A DNA stretch of 64,000 nt from a sulfur-oxidizing endosymbiont of Gigantopelta aegis (GTDB taxonomy: Bacteria > Pseudomonadota > Gammaproteobacteria > GRL18): positions 2,033,157-2,097,156 of the forward strand of contig NZ_JAEHGE010000001.1 of NCBI RefSeq assembly GCF_016097415.1, read 5' to 3'. The translations under genes were made by a program, and so were the position numbers. Of this stretch, positions 6,638 through 33,009 are shown in pieces (position 1 is the stretch's first letter; every line of letters starts with the position of its first letter). The notes beneath the pieces were generated by a model that was not told where the DNA came from, did no database searches, and saw only the letters and a list, made by a program, of their open reading frames with translations.

Positions 6638-6668
6638 ACGTATTGACGTGTCAACACTTTTTCGGACA
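6638..6668 (+). repeat. 31-bp dispersed repeat with an inverted copy at 16452-16480
   Basis: This stretch (ACGTATTGACGTGTCAACAC followed by TTTTTCGGACA) recurs in opposite orientation at 16452-16480 with two small deletions and little other change. It contains the dyad TTGAC-GT-GTCAA. Both copies sit in intergenic DNA of the accessory island. It may be the end of a mobile element or a regulator site; I cannot name it. Confidence 0.5.
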
Positions 6669-6711
6669 TTTATACGTAATGCTGCGCACAACGTATAAAT
6701 GCTAAGATGTT
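6664..6711 (+). repeat. 48-bp hairpin repeat, copy 1 (attC-like core)
   Basis: The perfect 10-bp inverted repeat ATTTATACGT / ACGTATAAAT (6668-6677, 6691-6700) encloses a 13-nt loop with TGCtgcGCA. The 48 bp are identical to 8442-8489, and identity ends at a GTT on the right, as expected for attC sites cut at G/TT. Unlike the second copy, this one has no RYYYAAC box on its left side, where the 6638 repeat joins. It may be a damaged or hybrid attC site. Confidence 0.55.
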
Positions 6712-7253: not shown

Positions 7254-7411
7254 TCAGTATTTCTTAGACACCCAGTGCGCTGAGGGGAATTACGGATAGC
7301 CATAGTTTGAGGTTTTAATTGATGGGGGTCTTTAAAGTTGTTTGAAGTTGTCTAATATAGATCTCTATTTCGTTCCCCTATAATTAAACCCATCCCTTCC
7401 TGCTCACATAC

Positions 7412-7445
7412 GTAGGATGCTGCTGAGGCACGAAGCGCATCAGCA
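7412..7445 (+). repeat. Intergenic repeat arm (GTAGGATGCTGCTGAGG type)
   Basis: About 34 bp nearly identical to 32975-33009 (one base differs in the core), and related to the GTAGGATGTGGTGAGG repeats at 61274 and 63369. It can form a small ATGCTG/CAGCA hairpin. It lies in the 380-bp gap between 7254 and 7633, where I see no convincing gene. Confidence 0.6.
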
Positions 7446-7633: not shown

Positions 7634-7828
7634 ATGAGAACAACATTAGATTTACCAGAAGAGCTATTAATCGAGGCAATGTCTGTCTCACATATTAAAA
7701 CAAAAACAAAAGTTATTACGCTTGCACTTCAAGAGCTTATCAGAAAGTCAGAAGTATCTGAACTAAAAAAATTTAAAGGGAAAATAGATCTAAATATTGA
7801 CTTAGATACAATTCGAGATAGATCATAA
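7634..7828 (+). CDS. Type II antitoxin, VapB-like
   Basis: Small antitoxin expected to bind and neutralise the downstream PIN toxin and to repress its own promoter. I use the ATG at 7634, which gives 64 residues starting MRTTLDLPEELLIEAMS. This is a ribbon-helix-helix N-terminus typical of VapB/DUF2191 proteins; an in-frame ATG-less extension to 7526 lacks family character. The C-terminal part (KKFKGKIDLNIDLDTIRDRS) is the toxin-binding tail. Its stop overlaps the toxin ATG by one base (TAATG). It sits within the integron-like stretch. Confidence 0.8.
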   Translation: MRTTLDLPEELLIEAMSVSHIKTKTKVITLALQELIRKSEVSELKKFKGKIDLNIDLDTIRDRS

Positions 7829-8211
7829 TGGAAGTATTAGTTGATACTTCTGTTTGGATTGATTATTTTCGTTCTGGGGATAAATCTGAAAAATTAGATT
7901 TTTTAATTGATGAAAATTTAGTTGTAATTAATGAGTTAATTCTGGCAGAACTCTTGCCTCTTCTTATTGTAAAGAAAGAAAAAAAAGTAATAAGATTGTT
8001 ACAAATTATAAAAAAATACCATCTTTATCCTGATTGGGAAGAAATTAGAGCTTATCAGGTTTCTTGTTTAAAATCAGGTTCAAATGGGGTAGGGATACCT
8101 GATTTATTAATTGCACAAAACAGTATTCAAAATAATTTACCTGTTTACTCAATCGATAAGCATTTTAAGTTTATGCATGATGCTAAAATTGGTATTAAAC
8201 TTTATCTTTGA
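7828..8211 (+). CDS. Type II toxin, VapC-like PIN-domain ribonuclease
   Basis: The 127-residue PIN-domain protein is a probable Mg-dependent endoribonuclease that cleaves tRNA or mRNA when free of antitoxin. The four acidic positions expected of a PIN active site are visible: D6 (LVDTSVWIDYF), E41 (ILAELL), D92 (GIPDLLIA) and D110 (SIDKHF). It is translationally coupled to the antitoxin (TAATG). Base composition is more AT-rich than the flanking core genes, consistent with acquisition. The RNA target cannot be told from the sequence. Confidence 0.85.
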   Translation: MEVLVDTSVWIDYFRSGDKSEKLDFLIDENLVVINELILAELLPLLIVKKEKKVIRLLQIIKKYHLYPDWEEIRAYQVSCLKSGSNGVGIPDLLIAQNSIQNNLPVYSIDKHFKFMHDAKIGIKLYL

Positions 8212-8220
8212 ATAATTAAT

Positions 8221-8278
8221 TTCCAACCAGAAAATGCATCGGAGGCAAAAAGACGCCCCGACGATTTTGGCGTTATCT
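8221..8278 (+). repeat. Possible attC-like site after vapC
   Basis: It begins TTCCAAC and ends GGC-GTTATCT, bracketing an imperfect dyad (ATCGGAGGC / GCCCCGACGAT). The overall 58-bp length and the GGCGTTA ending recall integron attC sites, but the left box departs from RYYYAAC and the stem is weak. Confidence 0.35.
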
Positions 8279-8360
8279 TCTCAAATTGCCAGCTCTTATT
8301 TGGTAAACGGTCATTTCATAAAAAAGGGCTAATTGACTATTTTGGTTTAGGTCACCTATT

Positions 8361-8412
8361 TTGGTTTAGGCCCCCCATCTTTTGAGATTAAATGATGGGT
8401 GGCCTAAATTAT
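8361..8412 (+). repeat. 52-bp hairpin repeat, copy 1
   Basis: The arms TTTAGGCCCCCCATC and GATGGGTGGCCTAAA pair over 15 bp with one mismatch around a 14-nt loop (TTTTGAGATTAAAT) and run into ATTATTTTT. Copies lie at 9621-9672 and 11349-11400. The gap 8212-8558 otherwise contains two attC-like sites and a promoter but no gene. Confidence 0.85.
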
Positions 8413-8433: not shown

Positions 8434-8493
8434 GTCCAACAGGACATTTATACGTAATGCTGCGCACAACGTATAAATGCTAAGATGTTGGCT
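8434..8493 (+). repeat. attC-like site, 60 bp (copy 2 of the 48-bp hairpin)
   Basis: GTCCAAC (fits RYYYAAC) at 8434-8440 and GTTGGCT (near GTTRRRY) at 8487-8493 bracket the perfect dyad ATTTATACGT / ACGTATAAAT (8446-8455, 8469-8478). Length and arrangement resemble the 60-bp attC of aadA cassettes. It lies just upstream of the HigBA-like cassette. Confidence 0.5.
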
Positions 8494-8522
8494 TATCAAA
8501 TATCACAACACAAAAATAGATA

Positions 8523-8552
8523 TTGACACCATATAATCCACTGGATTACAAT
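8523..8552 (+). promoter_or_regulatory. Candidate promoter for the HigB-like toxin gene
   Basis: TTGACA (8523-8528) and TACAAT (8547-8552) are 18 bp apart. The predicted transcription start falls at about 8559, the ATG I choose for the toxin, so the mRNA could be leaderless. A TTG at 8523 in the same frame is an alternative start and would dissolve this reading. Confidence 0.4.
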
Positions 8553-8558
8553 CCAAGT

Positions 8559-8897
8559 ATGCAAACAATCGTTGAATTACCAGAATATATCAAAAGATCC
8601 GATAAGTTACTGAACGAACCTGAATCAAATAGCATTATCAATTACTTAACTGCTCATCCCGCAGCTGGTAAACTTATGCAAGGCACTGGTGGTATTCGAA
8701 AGTTACGATGGTCATCGCAAGGCAGAGGAAAAAGTGGTGGTGTTCGAGTGATATATTACTACCATAATCAATCAATGCCATTATTTTTGTTAACCTTATT
8801 CGGCAAAGGTGAAAAAGAGAATCTCACGAAGGGCGAACGTAATGATTTAGCAAAATTTACATCACTACTTATTTTAAATTATGGCGGTAAAAAATGA
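8559..8897 (+). CDS. RelE/HigB-family toxin
   Basis: Probable ribosome-associated mRNA interferase. From the ATG at 8559 it has 112 residues. The compact basic fold typical of RelE/HigB2 toxins is suggested by GGIRKLRWSSQGRGKSGGVRV followed by IYYYH and LLTLFGKGEKENL. The in-frame TTG at 8523 would add 12 residues without family character. It precedes its antitoxin, the order of higBA loci, and overlaps it by 4 bp (ATGA). The pair is bracketed by attC-like sites, as is common for toxin-antitoxin cassettes in integrons. Confidence 0.85.
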   Translation: MQTIVELPEYIKRSDKLLNEPESNSIINYLTAHPAAGKLMQGTGGIRKLRWSSQGRGKSGGVRVIYYYHNQSMPLFLLTLFGKGEKENLTKGERNDLAKFTSLLILNYGGKK

Positions 8898-9181
8898 GCT
8901 CAGCATTTGATAGTATTAAACAAGGTCTTGAAGAAGCATTGGATTTTTCAAAAGGAAATTCAACAAAAGCTATAGTGCATGAATTTACACCCTTAGATGT
9001 AAAAAACATTCGTGCAAAAATTGGTATGACTCAAAATGAGTTTGCCTCTGCGTTTGGTATTAGTGTTAGTACCCTTCGACATTGGGAACGAGGAGACCGT
9101 ACTCCTCATGGCCCAGCCTTAGTCTTACTCAATGTTGTTGCAAAAGAACCTCAAGCAGTTTTGAATGCTCTAAGCAACTAA
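8894..9181 (+). CDS. HigA/NadS-like XRE-family antitoxin
   Basis: The 95-residue DNA-binding antitoxin carries a helix-turn-helix of the XRE (Cro/CI) type at about 38-75: IRAKIGMTQNEFASAFGISV then STLRHWERGDRTP. The N-terminal 30 residues probably contact the toxin. It should neutralise the upstream RelE-like toxin and repress the operon. The ATG overlaps the toxin stop. The stop is followed within 3 bp by the start of the best attC candidate in the window. Confidence 0.87.
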   Translation: MSSAFDSIKQGLEEALDFSKGNSTKAIVHEFTPLDVKNIRAKIGMTQNEFASAFGISVSTLRHWERGDRTPHGPALVLLNVVAKEPQAVLNALSN

Positions 9182-9183
9182 AA

Positions 9184-9313
9184 AGCCAACAAGAATTTGC
9201 AATGGATCACAGGGACGTATCGATTTTTTAAAATAAGCCAAGTGAGTTTGACGGGTGTGCTTTTTTAATAAAGTCTTTCCATGTCCCTGTGCCCATTGAA
9301 ATAGGCGTTAGAT
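9184..9313 (+). repeat. attC-like recombination site downstream of the HigBA pair
   Basis: AGCCAAC (9184-9190) and GTTAGAT (9307-9313, fits GTTRRRY) form the outer boxes. Inside, CAATGG-AT-CACAGGGAC (9200-9216) pairs with GTCCCTGTGCCCATTG (9283-9298) over 15 bp, with AT opposite a single G, i.e. an extrahelical base as in attC. The 66-nt centre is variable. Total length of 130 bp is within the known attC range. No integrase gene is visible. Confidence 0.6.
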
Positions 9314-9334
9314 TTTCAAATCAGAAACAGAAAC

Positions 9335-9567
9335 ATGACTGAGTATGAAGTAAGAGGAACTGAGATCAGAGGATTAGCTAAATCACTTGTATTACAGTTC
9401 ATGCAAAAAATCCAGACTGCAAGCCTGGGAGCAATGGGCTAAAGTTAGCACAAATATTTAGAATGTATGGCTTTGATTGGGGAGAATATGAGAAGGCAAT
9501 ATCATCCAATCAACAATACTGGGTAGTAGCTTTAGTTCGTGAGCTTAAAGCTGAAGGGGGGTGTTAG
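9335..9567 (+). pseudogene. Frameshifted small cassette gene, unknown function
   Basis: An ATG at 9335 starts MTEYEVRGTEIRGLAKSLVLQ. After one frame change near 9400 the other frame continues VHAKNPDCKPGSNGLKLAQI and onward through FRMYGFDWGEYEKA to ISSNQQYWVVALVRELKAEGGC before TAG at 9565. Together they make a coherent protein of about 77 residues. The gene lies just inside the right edge of the attC candidate, where a cassette gene would start. I do not recognise the family. Either a one-base error or a real mutation breaks it. Confidence 0.5.
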
Positions 9568-9620
9568 AGCGTGCTCCCAAAACAAAACATTGGCGATTAA
9601 TAATTTGGTTTAGGCGAATT

Positions 9621-9672
9621 TGGTTTAGGCCACCCATTTTTTGAGATTAAATGATGGGTGGCCTAAATTATT
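9621..9672 (+). repeat. 52-bp hairpin repeat, copy 2
   Basis: The arms TTTAGGCCACCCAT and ATGGGTGGCCTAAA are perfect over 14 bp, with the same loop family as copies 1 and 3. It is preceded by a shorter direct repeat of the left arm start (GGTTTAGGC at about 9608). It lies between the broken cassette gene and the secreted-protein gene. Confidence 0.85.
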
Positions 9673-11228: not shown

Positions 11229-11348
11229 ATTCATTTATTAGTCTTTATCACCTAATAAAAAGCAATATCAAAGCTAAATTGTAAAAAAATTCTTCTCGAA
11301 ATGTGAATTTACAAAAATTGAATGTTTTTCAGTGGAGTGGGTAGCAAT

Positions 11349-11400
11349 TTGGTTTTGGCCACCCATCTTTTGAGATTAAATGATGGGTGGCCTAAATTAT
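11349..11400 (+). repeat. 52-bp hairpin repeat, copy 3
   Basis: Same element as at 8361 and 9621, with the arm GGCCACCCATC pairing with GATGGGTGGCC around the TTTTGAGATTAAAT loop. It is the only clear structure in the 424-bp gene-free stretch 11229-11652; I see no gene or strong promoter in the rest. Confidence 0.85.
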
Positions 11401-12055: not shown

Positions 12056-12918
12056 TTAAGCTATTTCCTGCTGTATTTCATAATCGACTGGTGACAAATA
12101 ATCATTAGCCGAATGAAGTCGCTCCCGATTATAAAATACCTCAATATATTCAAATATTGCCTGCTTTGCTTCTACTCTGGTTTTGAATCGACAATGGTGC
12201 GTCAATTCAGTTTTCAAACTATGAAAGAAGCTCTCTGATACAGCATTGTCCCAGCAATTTCCTTTGCGGCTCATAGACTGAATTATGTTATGATCCGACA
12301 ATATTTTTCTATGACTATCAGAGGCATATTGGCTACCTCGGTCAGTATGCCAAAGCAATCCATCCATTGGTTTACGCTTCCATATGGCCATCAGTAAAGC
12401 ATCATTGACTAGCTTGGCTTTCATTCGCTCATCCATCGACCAGCCAACAATTTGCCTAGAGAATAAGTCAATGACAACCGCTAAATATAACCAGCCTTCC
12501 TTGGTGGCAATATAGGTAATATCACCCACATAGTAGCGATCAGGTTGAGAGACAGCAAACTCTCTTTCCAGTAAATTTGGAGATATACGCTTATTATGCT
12601 TGGAATTAGTCGTCGCTTTAAAGCGTCTCTTCGTTTTACAAAACAAACCGGCTTTTTTCATTAATCGACCAATTCTCCGGCGGCTTATATGAACGCCTTT
12701 TTCAGCCAGTTTTCTTTTAAGACGACGGGTTCCATAAGTCTTGCGACTGTCTTCAAACAGTTTTTTAGCTGCTCAGTAAGCGCTTCATTTTCTTTCTCTC
12801 TATCCGTTTTAGGAGAGCTAACCCAATCATAATAGCAACTACGGGAAACATCCATAAAACGGCACAGAATCGTTACCGGGTAATCTTTAGCCTGATCAGT
12901 TATCCATGCGTACTTCAC
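12056..12918 (-). pseudogene. IS3 transposase orfB, copy 1 (frameshifted)
   Basis: DDE integrase-type transposase. The GTG at 12918 starts [15 protein letters not shown]; the frame then changes at a run of six A (near 12770) where seven are needed to keep [20 protein letters not shown] in frame. The remaining 201 residues (12056-12661) hold the catalytic core: D in VGDITYI, D in [11 protein letters not shown] and E in [11 protein letters not shown]. The run reads CTA-AAA-AAC, an A-AAA-AAC heptamer, so -1 slippage could in principle restore it. Every copy that covers this spot has the same six A. The protein ends [13 protein letters not shown], unlike copy 2. Confidence 0.75.
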
Positions 12919-13216
12919 AAAGTTTCCCTTGCAAAGTACGCTGTGGCCTTTTTAATAAATCACGCTCCTGAATCACTTTTGCCAATTCTTTTTTCAGACG
13001 TTTTACTTCATCATAAATGTGTTCATCACTTCTATTGGCTACCGTCTTCACCGGTTTGGAATATTTACTGATCCAGGTATGTAGAGTATTTACATTAACA
13101 CCTAGCTCCCTGGCAGTCTGAGAAACGGGTTGATCCGTCTCATTAGCTAATTTGACAGCTGATTCTTTAAATTCTGATGTATAGCTTTTATTCGGTTTTT
13201 TTGTTTGATCATTCAT
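12896..13216 (-). CDS. IS3 orfA, copy 1 (helix-turn-helix protein)
   Basis: The 106-residue N-terminal transposase component has the helix-turn-helix [19 protein letters not shown] (about 11-29), then [20 protein letters not shown], followed by a leucine-zipper-like region ([20 protein letters not shown]). Its end ([17 protein letters not shown]) departs from family expectation. With six A instead of five after TTATT it would read [15 protein letters not shown] and stop at a TGA overlapping the orfB GTG, the classic IS3 arrangement with an A-AAA-AAG slippery site. Confidence 0.75.
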   Translation of the reverse strand: MNDQTKKPNKSYTSEFKESAVKLANETDQPVSQTARELGVNVNTLHTWISKYSKPVKTVANRSDEHIYDEVKRLKKELAKVIQERDLLKRPQRTLQGKLCEVRMDN

Positions 13217-13282
13217 TTTAGGTCACACTTTTTATCTTTTAGTTATTTTAAGTTGTGTGTCCGGTTAAGTATAGCCACATTA

Positions 13283-14032
13283 TGGCTTCAACAGAAAATT
13301 TAAAGCAAATAGAGTAACAAGTAAAATAATAAACATGACTAGAATATAAACTTGTAGTGTATTGAGCGTATTTTCCCATAATTTTTCATAGGCAAAGCCG
13401 GGGTAACTTTGAACGTGGATCGCGCCCACTGTTTGCCAACCATTTTCTACAATAGCTTCTTGAAAGGGAGCATGTAATAAATAAGGAAATAAACCACTGG
13501 GGCACTTTATCTACTATTAAAGGGCCACTGTTATCAATGCCAAATAACCATTTTCTCCTGAGCATGAGAGGATAATTTTCATTTAAGTATTCTCGAATAT
13601 TGCTTGTACTAACAAAAAACGTACTGATGAAAACTGTGATAAAAACCACTGATCATGATGATAATTTGTTTAAACATGTCATGTGATTGAAATAAGGAAA
13701 TAAACCACTGGGGCACTTTATCTACTATTAAAGGGCGTGTTTTGGCAAACAATAACTTGTTATCAATATCTTTAATGGTAATTTCTTTATAATAACCACT
13801 ATCAAACATCAAATTGGTATAGGTTTCGATGCCAGCAATATCACCACCACTGATTTCAGATGTGATGGCAATACCCAGTGACGTCGCAGCATCCTGAGCA
13901 TGAGAGGATAATTGTTCATTTAAGTATTCTCGAATATTGCTAACAATAAATGTACTAACAAAAACATGTACTGATGAAAAGTGTGATAAAAATTACACTG
14001 ATCATGATGATAATTTGTTTAAACAATGTCAT
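13283..14032 (-). pseudogene. lapD: lapD remnant: N-terminal piece, partly duplicated, cut by IS
   Basis: On the minus strand an ATG at 14032, behind AGGA, begins MTLFKQIIIMISVIFITLFI, then breaks and resumes as VSTFIVSNIREYLNEQLSSH and AQDAATSLGI. It continues MFDSGYYKEITIKDIDNKLL and PLIVDKVPQWFISLF. These match the first membrane helix and periplasmic domain of LapD, the inner-membrane c-di-GMP receptor that sequesters LapG. At 13689 the 5' region repeats, diverged and with an internal deletion, again reaching PLIVDKVPQWFISLF. It then runs on in another frame as NGWQTVGAIHVQSYPGFAYE, a second membrane helix and LLKP, where IS copy 1 begins. HAMP, GGDEF and EAL domains are absent. Confidence 0.75.
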
Positions 14033-14113
14033 TGTGATTGATTCCTTTTATAACAATTCGTTTTGCATACGTTCTATTAGTTCAGTCCACAAACGTATTC
14101 TGGAACTATAATG

Positions 14114-14967
14114 TTAGTTATACTCAACCGGACAGACTGGTGACAAATAATCATTAGCCGAATGAAGTCGCTCCCGATTATAAAATACCTCAATATATTC
14201 AAATATTGCCTGCTTTGCTTCTACTCTGGTTTTGAATCGACAATGGTGCGTCAATTCAGTTTTCAAACTATGAAAGAAGCTCTCTGATACAGCATTGTCC
14301 CAGCAATTTCCTTTGCGGCTCATAGACTGAATTATGTTATGATCCGACAATATTTTTCTATGACTATCAGAGGCATATTGGCTACCTCGGTCAGTATGCC
14401 AAAGCAATCCATCCATTGGTTTACGCTTCCATATGGCCATCAGTAAAGCATCATTGACTAGCTTGGCTTTCATTCGCTCATCCATCGACCAGCCAACAAT
14501 TTGCCTAGAGAATAAGTCAATGACAACCGCTAAATATAACCAGCCTTCCTTGGTGGCAATATAGGTAATATCACCCACATAGTAGCGATCAGGTTGAGAG
14601 ACAGTAAACTCTCTTTCCAGTAAATTTGGAGATATACGCTTATTATGCTTGGAATTAGTCGTCGCTTTAAAGCGTCTCTTCGTTTTACAAAACAAACCGG
14701 CTTTTTTCATTAATCGACCAATTCTCCGGCGGCTTATATGAACGCCTTTTTCAGCCAGTTTTCTTTTAAGACGACGGGTTCCATAAGTCTTGCGACTGTC
14801 TTCAAACAGTTTTTTAGCTGCTCAGTAAGCGCTTCATTTTCTTTCTCTCTATCCGTTTTAGGAGAGCTAACCCAATCATAATAGCAACTACGGGAAACAT
14901 CCATAAAACGGCACAGAATCGTTACCGGGTAATCTTTAGCCTGATCAGTTATCCATGCGTACTTCAC
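14114..14967 (-). pseudogene. IS3 transposase orfB, copy 2 (frameshifted)
   Basis: Same DDE transposase as copy 1, broken at the same six-A run (near 14819). The catalytic part (14114-14710) has D, D and E motifs intact and ends [10 protein letters not shown] within the right inverted repeat. This is probably the authentic C-terminus of the element, because the repeat itself encodes CPVEYN-stop. The upstream part is in frame with orfA in this copy only. Confidence 0.75.
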
Positions 14968-15264
14968 AAAGTTTCCCTTGCAAAGTACGCTGTGGCCTTT
15001 TAATAAATCACGCTCCTGAATCACTTTTGCCAATTCTTTTTTCAGACGTTTTACTTCATCATAAATGTGTTCATCACTTCTATTGGCTACCGTCTTCACC
15101 GGTTTGGAATATTTACTGATCCAGGTATGTAGAGTATTTACATTAACACCTAGCTCCCTGGCAGTCTGAGAAACGGGTTGATCCGTCTCATTAGCTAATT
15201 TGACAGCTGATTCTTTAAATTCTGATGTATAGCTTTTATTCGGTTTTTTTGTTTGATCATTCAT
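14734..15264 (-). CDS. IS3 orfA fused to 5' part of orfB, copy 2
   Basis: The 176-residue frame has the orfA helix-turn-helix and leucine-rich region, then [28 protein letters not shown] run of four A (five in copies 1, 4 and 5; six expected) joins orfA to the start of orfB by chance of frame. It ends prematurely at the orfB six-A run. It cannot make an active transposase but might yield a DNA-binding inhibitor; that is inference. Confidence 0.65.
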
Positions 15265-15330
15265 TTTAGGTCACACTTTTTATCTTTTAGTTATTTTAAG
15301 TTGTGTGTCCGGTTAAGTATAGCCACATTA

Positions 15331-16182
15331 GTACGCATGGATAACTGATCAGGCTAAAGATTACCCGGTAACGATTCTGTGCCGTTTTATGGATGTTTCC
15401 CGTAGTTGCTATTATGATTGGGTTAGCTCTCCTAAAACGGATAGAGAGAAAGAAAATGAAGCGCTTACTGAGCAGCTAAAAAACTGTTTGAAGACAGTCG
15501 CAAGACTTATGGAACCCGTCGTCTTAAAAGAAAACTGGCTGAAAAAGGCGTTCATATAAGCCGCCGGAGAATTGGTCGATTAATGAAAAAGCCGGTTTGT
15601 TTTGTAAAACGAAGAGACGCTTTAAAGCGACCTAATTCCAAGCATAATAAGCGTATATCTCCAAATTTACTGGAAAGAGAGTTTACTGTCTCTCAACCTG
15701 ATCGCTACTATGTGGGTGATATTACCTATATTGCCACCAAGGAAGGCTGGTTATATTTAGCGGTTGTCATTGACTTATTCTCTAGGCAAATTGTTGGCTG
15801 GTCGATGGATGAGCGAATGAAAGCCAAGCTAGTCAATGATGCTTTACTGATGGCCATATGGAAGCGTAAACCAATGGATGGATTGCTTTGGCATACTGAC
15901 CGAGGTAGCCAATATGCCTCTGATAGTCATAGAAAAATATTGTCGGATCATAACATAATTCAGTCTATGAGCCGCAAAGGAAATTGCTGGGACAATGCTG
16001 TATCAGAGAGCTTCTTTCATAGTTTGAAAACTGAATTGACGCACCATTGTCGATTCAAAACCAGAGTAGAAGCAAAGCAGGCAATATTTGAATATATTGA
16101 GGTATTTTATAATCGGGGGAGCGACTTCATTCGGCTAATGATTATTTGTCACCAGTCGATTATGAAATACAGCAGGAAATAG
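15331..16182 (+). pseudogene. IS3 transposase orfB, copy 3 (5'-truncated, several indels)
   Basis: The start of orfB is missing. The six-A frameshift is shared with the other copies. In addition an A is lost in ATGAAAAAGCC and two bases near GCGACCTAATTCC, so [20 protein letters not shown] replaces the normal stretch. Two extra G after TATAATC change the C-terminus to [16 protein letters not shown]. The DDE motifs D (VGDITYI), D (HTDRGSQY) and E ([11 protein letters not shown]) remain in the 15583-16182 frame. Not functional as written. Confidence 0.75.
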
Positions 16183-16334
16183 CTTAAATCGATTGATTGA
16201 AGAGGGGTAAAGGCGACATAAATGCCGCCCATTACCGTTGACGGCCATCGGCTCCTCAGCCTGTGCCGTGAAGATATTGTAACAGGATCATTACCGTTGT
16301 GAAAATACCTTGGGTGAATGGAACGGCTCTATCG
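15331..16334 (+). mobile_element. IS3-family element, copy 3 (5'-truncated, altered right end)
   Basis: Plus-strand copy lacking the left end and orfA: it starts at GTACGCATGG of orfB immediately after copy 2. It runs to the orfB stop and then through the roughly 150-bp segment also found beyond copy 1. Copies 2 and 3 therefore form a head-to-head inverted pair. Confidence 0.85.
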
Positions 16335-16517
16335 TTCCAGAGGGCAAAGCCCTTTCTCTTCATCTGTTTAAAGTTAACATGAGAAACTAAAATGATAGGA
16401 AATACAAAATGACAAAAATCACTTGAAACAGCCAAAAAAAATTTAGAAAACTGTCCGAAAAGTGTTGACACATCATACGTATGAATATGAAGCAACAAGG
16501 TACAAATAAAACCTATA
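16335..16517. other. Spacer between IS copies, with inverted copy of the 6638 repeat
   Basis: No gene is seen. 16452-16480 is the reverse complement of the repeat at 6638-6668 (TGTCCGAAAAGTGTTGACAC and onward). A small GGAACG/CGTTCC dyad sits at the border with copy 3 (16320-16340). Confidence 0.5.
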
Positions 16518-17016
16518 TAATGTGGCTATACTTAACCGGACACACAACTTAAAATAACTAAAAGATAAAAAGTGTGACCTAAAATGAATGATCAAACAAA
16601 AAAACCGAATAAAAGCTATACATCAGAATTTAAAGAATCAGCTGTCAAATTAGCTAATGAGACGGATCAACCTGTTTCTCAGACTGCCAGGGAGCTAGGT
16701 GTTAATGTAAATACTCTACATACCTGGATCAGTAAAATATTCCAAACCGGTGAAGACGGTAGCCAATAGAAGTGATGAACACATTTATGATGAAGTAAAA
16801 CGTCTGAAAAAAGAATTGGCAAAAGTGATTCAGGAGCGTGATTTATTAAAAAGGCCACAGCGTACTTTGCAAGGGAAACTTTGTGAAGTACGCATGGATA
16901 ACTGATCAGGCTAAAGATTACCCGGTAACGATTCTGTGCCGTTTTATGGATGTTTCCCGTAGTTGCTATTATGATTGGGTTAGCTCTCCTAAAACGGATA
17001 GAGAGAAAGAAAATGA
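16518..17016 (+). mobile_element. IS3-family element, copy 4 (3'-truncated)
   Basis: Left end TAATGTGGCTATACTTAACC at 16518, then orfA and the first part of orfB, ending abruptly after GAGAGAAAGAAAATGA where copy 5 begins. The orfA frame carries an extra A (AGTAAAATATTCC, about 16735). Confidence 0.85.
16584..16904 (+). pseudogene. IS3 orfA, copy 4 (frameshifted)
   Basis: The protein opens like other copies ([19 protein letters not shown]) but after TLHTWISK the extra A changes the frame to [10 protein letters not shown] and stops at 16769. The rest of orfA (16770-16904) persists out of frame. Not functional. Confidence 0.75.
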
Positions 17017-17082
17017 TAATGTGGCTATACTTAACCGGACACACAACTTAAAATAACTAAAAGATAAAAAGTGTGACCTAAA

Positions 17083-17406
17083 ATGAATGATCAAACAAAA
17101 AAAAAACTGAATAAAAGCTATACATCAGAATTTAAAGAATCAGCTGTCAAATTAGCTAATGAGACGGATCAACCTGTTTCTCAGACTGCCAGGGAGCTAG
17201 GTGTTAATGTAAATACTCTACATACCTGGATCAGTAAATATTCCAAACCGGTGAAGACGGTAGCCAATAGAAGTGATGAACACATTTATGATGAAGTAAA
17301 ACGTCTGAAAAAAGAATTGGCAAAAGTGATTCAGGAGCGTGATTTATTAAAAAGGCCACAGCGTACTTTGCAAGGGAAACTTTGTGAAGTACGCATGGAT
17401 AACTGA
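17083..17406 (+). CDS. IS3 orfA, copy 5
   Basis: The 107-residue helix-turn-helix protein is like copy 1 but with KKKLNKSY near the N-terminus, caused by a longer A run. The same five-A run gives the aberrant end [17 protein letters not shown] instead of the expected [12 protein letters not shown]. Confidence 0.7.
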   Translation: MNDQTKKKLNKSYTSEFKESAVKLANETDQPVSQTARELGVNVNTLHTWISKYSKPVKTVANRSDEHIYDEVKRLKKELAKVIQERDLLKRPQRTLQGKLCEVRMDN

Positions 17407-17732
17407 TCAGGCTAAAGATTACCCGGTAACGATTCTGTGCCGTTTTATGGATGTTTCCCGTAGTTGCTATTATGATTGGGTTAGCTCTCCTAAAACGGAT
17501 AGAGAGAAAGAAAATGAAGCGCTTACTGAGCAGCTAAAAAACTGTTTGAAGACAGTCGCAAGACTTATGGAACCCGTCGTCTTAAAAGAAAACTGGCTGA
17601 AAAAGGCGTTCATATAAGCCGCCGGAGAATTGGTCGATTAATGAAAAAAGCCGGTTTGTTTTGTAAAACGAAGAGACGCTTTAAAGCGACGACTAATTCC
17701 AAGCATAATAAGCGTATATCTCCAAATTTACT
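17384..17732 (+). pseudogene. IS3 transposase orfB fragment, copy 5
   Basis: The N-terminal part [20 protein letters not shown] stays open to the six-A frameshift and ends at 17617. The following sequence continues to ISPNLL in another frame and then breaks off at the lapG junction. The DDE domain is absent. Confidence 0.75.
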
Positions 17733-32974: not shown

Positions 32975-33009
32975 GTAGGATGCTGCTGAGGAACGAAGCG
33001 CATCAGCAT
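32975..33009 (+). repeat. Intergenic repeat arm (GTAGGATGCTGCTGAGG type), second copy
   Basis: About 35 bp matching 7412-7445 except for AGGAACG versus AGGCACG, placed between the converging VOC gene and glnD. Confidence 0.6.

Follow-up and report, generated by a model that had tools for sequence, protein, structure and literature searches.

Long attC-type sites of a gammaproteobacterial genus, a stranded toxin–antitoxin cassette, and an IS91-family element that may travel as a gene cassette

Clusters of attC sites lacking an integrase are termed CALINs in IntegronFinder (PMC9024848), and toxin–antitoxin (TA) pairs are known as cassettes of Vibrio superintegrons (PMC11023631). Mobile elements are also associated with integron recombination sites: IS1111-attC insertion sequences and group IIC-attC introns are named in two reports (PMC12444791, PMC7923331). 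According to a third, ISCR28, an IS91-like element, lies beside attC in sul4 modules, with the attC at or right after its end, and has been suggested to be shuffled as a cassette component (PMC12772301).

The locus described here lies in a window of 64,000 nucleotides (C1:2033157-2097156), the whole stretch analysed, from the genome of a sulfur-oxidizing endosymbiont of Gigantopelta aegis. Like a CALIN, it has two attCs about 0.9 kb apart and no intI nearby; unlike a CALIN, one cassette has a transposon end at its boundary, and the genome has intI elsewhere. As in the Vibrio superintegrons, a TA pair forms a cassette in a chromosomal integron system, whereas the window cassettes are dispersed, outside any large array. 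The site at 9184-9313 has the R''/R' boxes and unpaired spacers of a long, VCR-like integron attC, and it shares with integron attCs and gene cassettes the extrahelical L-box bases, the long variable loop, the G|TT edge and a cassette start that complements R''. The difference is that it belongs to a genus-specific family of ~130 nt missed by R1, a covariance model built from 14 attCs outside this genome (mobile integrons and distant relatives). Dispersed cassettes outside an integron are a known picture, now extended to a little-studied gammaproteobacterial genus.

On the forward strand, the site consists of R'' AGCCAAC (9184-9190), an inner stem and R' GTTAGAT (9307-9313). The inner stem has 15 bp, CAATGG/CCATTG plus CACAGGGAC/GTCCCTGTG, with AT facing C as extrahelical bases, and the spacers of 9 and 8 unpaired nt match those of attC. 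All the features on which the preliminary description relied (outer boxes, 15-bp stem with an extrahelical base, variable centre) are present in the sequence. R' fits GTTRRRY with its G|TT crossover, predicted between G9307 and T9308; R'' departs from RYYYAAC at the second base (G for Y) and was counted as fitting. In place, 5 of 7 positions of R'' and R' pair, as expected, because R' belongs to the next cassette. The bottom strand folds at -20.0 kcal/mol, against -11.4 ± 2.6 for dinucleotide shuffles (z -3.3). A geometry scan of the whole window (AAC/GTT boxes, attC spacers and inner stem) ranks the site first at 18.3, the maximum in two shuffled windows being 15.4; a strict R-box scanner missed the site in the window, and this scorer was used instead. 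An Rfam search of the window gave one tRNA and nothing at the site.

Comparison within the genus carries the identification. A second covariance model, R2, was built from 17 long attCs of the genus with the target left out. In its alignment, 90% of cells are standard pairs and 16 of 22 pairs have changed on both sides; this covariation was reached by none of 500 shuffles, and slid registers drop to 28-39%. R''/R' and L''/L' pairing, unpaired spacers and extrahelical bases are thus found together with covariation support. R2 matches 9184-9313 at its exact coordinates with 117.1 bits (E 3.9e-25), the next match in the window scoring 11.3 bits. Its 137 matches fall in 12 of 16 genomes of the genus, and this genome accounts for seven of them, counting the target; 8 genomes from outside the genus gave no match. 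The genomes compared are drafts. BLAST of the site finds five further copies in its own genome, scattered and 72-84% identical, and matches in 11 of 96 genomes (own included), all within the family; a distant search against plasmids gave no match. Five of R2's six other matches in the genome are these BLAST paralogs, four of which served in training R2 or are almost identical to a sequence that did, and the sixth is a weak match at C1:875012. One paralog is the first attC beside an intI gene (L002/L007).

R1, trained on short mobile attCs and a few from distant relatives, misses the long site and picks up ten genomic attCs of other types. The covarying family had been overlooked by a model trained on short mobile sites. 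The attC covariance-model check proposed earlier gave a match with R2, although R1 misses the site. The search for further attC sites in the genome yielded at least 16, in about ten places. An attC match, intI genes and other attCs, whose joint absence had been named as the finding that would speak against the preliminary description, are all there. The reading of 9184-9313 as attC-like is borne out by R2, the fold and the geometry scan, and the site is almost certainly a functional-type member of the ~130-nt attC family that is specific to the genus. A REP element or terminator, which a strong hairpin with other repeats nearby might suggest, has practically no probability: the copies lie at cassette ends, the boxes and 9/8-nt spacers match attC, the cassette start is exactly complementary to R'', and the covariation and R2 match refute it.

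The bases at the start of a captured cassette are complementary to the R'' box of that cassette. The complete TA cassette (8488..9307, forward strand, 820 bp) shows this relation, since its start GTTGGCT (8487-8493; G|TTGGCT) is the exact complement of R'' AGCCAAC. It carries a RelE/HigB-like toxin gene at 8559..8897 (forward; PF06296, E 5.8e-7; first ATG, an alternative TTG start being possible at 8523), followed by a NadS/HigA-like Xre antitoxin gene at 8894..9181 (forward; NF041265, 66.3 bits, cut-off 60; HTH_3). The toxin comes first, as in HigBA, and a RelE-fold toxin gene followed by an Xre antitoxin gene marks a predicted HigBA type II pair. The TA pair directly upstream of the site had been recognised correctly. 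Of the small gene said to lie directly downstream, gene sequence does occur at 9308 to about 9570, but as a two-frame remnant and no intact gene: the next cassette begins there (9308..9570, forward) as a frameshifted gene remnant that lacks its own attC.

In the proposed mechanism, the bottom strand of the attC would fold into an R/L-box hairpin with extrahelical bases, and an integron integrase would bind this folded strand, cutting between G9307 and T9308. The 820-bp TA cassette (8488-9307) would then move as a circle, in which the R boxes would be perfectly complementary. The data show the attC structure with its covariation, the cassette boundaries, the paralogs and the intI genes; recombination of the attC, action of a distant intI in trans and a role for the TA pair as a working addiction cassette are inferred.

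A second, short attC (8221..8278, forward) ends a vapBC cassette. It is the best R1 match in the window (15.0 bits, E 0.28) and has homologues in its own genome at C1:1178044 and near C1:875000. The cassette contains a vapB-like antitoxin gene with an ATG start at 7634..7828 (forward; PF09957, E 6e-12) and a vapC-like PIN toxin gene at 7828..8211 (forward; PF01850, E 2.7e-9), which scores 60.8 bits against NF047959, below the cut-off of 80. With this site included, the suggestion of an integrase-less attC cluster fits the locus: two close attCs and no intI nearby, a CALIN status that depends partly on the weak match at 8221 (15 bits). No intI and attI adjoin the array, as they would in a complete integron. 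Relatives share the flhB-gltX region as far as 6526 and nothing beyond it; therefore, the cluster sits in a variable region. The non-conserved stretch after gltX contains two attC cassettes, two solo IS91-like ends and gene remnants. With very high confidence, 9184-9313 is an ordinary attC belonging to a TA cassette, the cassette is part of a decayed CALIN after gltX, and the locus is a decayed outlier of a dispersed chromosomal integron system.

Two TIGR02249 intI proteins, with scores of 363 and 338 bits (the cut-off is 265), are encoded in the genome, one at C1:1697346 and one at C1:998550, 0.34 Mb (nearest, 344 kb) and 1.04 Mb from the window. The remark that no integrase is in view therefore holds for the window and fails for the genome. 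Next to the second gene is a divergent cassette whose terminal attC belongs to the same family as 9184-9313. The TA cassette is stranded about a megabase from the one integron of the genome that bears the same kind of attC. Both intI genes (L001 1032-2490; L002 1477-2734) have an intact core and a conserved N-terminal extension that is split by frame breaks but uninterrupted in two relatives. Present-day activity is doubtful because the extension is broken in both copies; an IntI acting in trans could in principle still use the window attC. A recombinase fragment at C1:3442434, also considered as intI, was rejected as IS91-companion-like.

What bounds the TA cassette on the left is no ordinary attC; an IS91-family element ends there. 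This solo right end (8434..8487, forward; 48-bp hairpin 8442-8489) is composed of GTCCAAC, an 11-bp hairpin and CTAAGATG, and abuts the TA cassette at G|TT. A second solo right end of the same element lies at 6664..6709 (forward; 48-bp hairpin 6664-6711), followed by G|TTATCA. The genome has three copies of the 48-bp hairpin, two of them in the window, and each is followed by GTT and then by differing sequence. There are many copies in relatives, sharing up to about 250 nt of noncoding sequence upstream, and in one locus (L095) this conserved region is preceded by IS91-type transposase sequence. Intact elements carry a Xer-like tyrosine recombinase (TIGR02249 match below cut-off) plus an IS91 transposase. 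In relatives, the hairpin right end lies downstream of a Y2 transposase gene, as in the IS91 family; the window copies are ends only.

The hairpin could instead be the attC of an ordinary cassette without a transposon link, given its R''-like GTCCAAC, its G|TT edge and a weak R1 match (9.5 bits). This is very improbable: in relatives the hairpin terminates an element with the Xer-like recombinase and IS91 transposase, and a conserved noncoding region of ~250 nt lies upstream. The 48-mer was accordingly rejected as an ordinary attC when IS91 transposase was found upstream. It was also rejected as a native attI; the intI-linked attI ends ...GTCAATTACTTG|TT.

The IS91-family end is therefore kept as the reading of the hairpin. 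Ten of 22 distinct right-hand junctions adjoin a cassette whose attC R'' exactly complements the junction bases; in 30 trials with permuted starts, the average was 0.5 and the highest count 2. The left end of the element is G|TTGAACAAAACCGC, and its neighbours are attI (n=3), attC (n=2, one of them, in L145, recognised by eye), a repeated hairpin (n=3) and genes or other sequence (n=2); these counts refer to the fetched loci and are no census. In one genome (G005), an intact element separates attI from the first cassette. In an intI-linked array on a plasmid of Candidatus Thiodictyon syntrophicum, it has an attC on one side and the next cassette on the other. In an Escherichia coli class 1 integron, it separates the aac(6')-IIa attC from aadA4, and both its edges are G|TT. 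Elements at L103 141-2619, L165 2331-4863 and L172 2365 to about 4940 are G|TT-exact between attI/attC and cassettes; G|TT edges, attI/attC-to-cassette placement and a 3' attC-like site are combined in L103, L081, L165 and L172. Copies in Thiothrix and Aromatoleum have similar ends outside recognised integrons. The latter, ISAzo26 (L166, annotated IS91-like), likewise has a recombinase with an IS91 transposase and G|TTGGAC ... GTCCAAC ends with a hairpin, but its copy lies outside any recognised integron. For four other plasmid elements examined, the ends are either unrecognised or different.

Two neighbouring sequences were seen next to ends of the IS91-type element. In L104 (2440-2545), sequence like the 3' end of a group II intron takes the place of the usual GTCCAAC flank and adjoins the IS91-type terminal hairpin at AGACATTTATACG. 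The left flanks of the element in L136, L148 and L151 have in common another hairpin sequence, which ends in ATTTAA[CT]TG|TT and may be the terminus of a further element of similar style.

The element ends mimic attC boxes, and the circle junction would resemble an attC. It is proposed, at about even probability, that attC-like termini (G|TTGRAC at the start, GTYCAAC-hairpin-G|TT at the end, circle junction attC-like) characterise a subgroup of IS91 elements that bear a Xer/IntI-like tyrosine recombinase, and that these elements move as gene cassettes into the attI and attC sites of chromosomal and class 1 integrons, via IntI or their own recombinase. On this view, such elements would have left the window hairpins behind as solo ends, and one of these hairpins would provide the left edge of the TA cassette. 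Cassette-like movement and attI/attC-targeted transposition both fit the element; the former is favoured because the element goes into attI and into unrelated integrons and preserves G|TT on either side. At least two copies interrupt genes or other sequence, and therefore the target is sometimes not an integron.

Like IS1111-attC and group IIC-attC, this would be a mobile element targeting integron recombination sites; unlike them, it combines an IS91-family (Y2/HUH) transposase with a Xer-like recombinase and has attC-like boxes at its own ends. It also differs from ISCR28, for which the accessible text describes no companion tyrosine recombinase (PMC12772301): here the element has two defined ends, each placed exactly at G|TT in attI and attC. 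Within the library searched, a literature search for IS91 with a tyrosine recombinase and attC found ISCR28 alone and not the recombinase-bearing type, whose novelty is unproven. The attC itself is ordinary; the transposon that may travel like a cassette is the unexpected part. If the proposal is true, rolling-circle transposition and cassette capture are joined in one unit, which is already in a class 1 resistance integron, and IS91-like elements sitting exactly at cassette boundaries are explained.

How the cluster came to be stranded can be read in two ways. The first, which is somewhat probable, starts from one or two larger arrays that were fragmented by IS91-family transposition, by IS3-type insertions and by recombination between copies, leaving this piece. 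The two solo IS91-type ends (6664 and 8434), the remnants after both attCs and the several IS3-type transposase copies or fragments that follow the cassette cluster at 12056-17617, in both orientations, agree with such a break-up; on the other hand, a donor array with the same cassette order was not found, and many dispersed attC sites are not beside an IS91 end of the 48-bp hairpin type. A single off-target IntI insertion of the TA cassette at a genomic attG-type site is unlikely, even though attG integration is documented (Loot et al. 2024, cited in PMC12444791 and PMC11023631) and single or paired attCs are scattered over about ten places. The left boundary is an IS91-family end and no plain host DNA, a second cassette and remnants adjoin the TA cassette, and a relative with an empty site was not found. 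Fragmentation of arrays by transposons is thus preferred over off-target integration.

Other repeats occur in the window. A hairpin repeat, TTTAGGCCACCCATC...GATGGGTGGCCTAAA, has three copies around the cassettes (8360-8410, 9619-9669 and 11348-11398) and four further diverged copies in the genome, of which the one at C1:967272 is 6 bases away from an attC-like site. A dispersed repeat with GGATGCTGCTGAGG occurs at 7405-7445 and 32978-32991, and also in L056, with a related form in L034.
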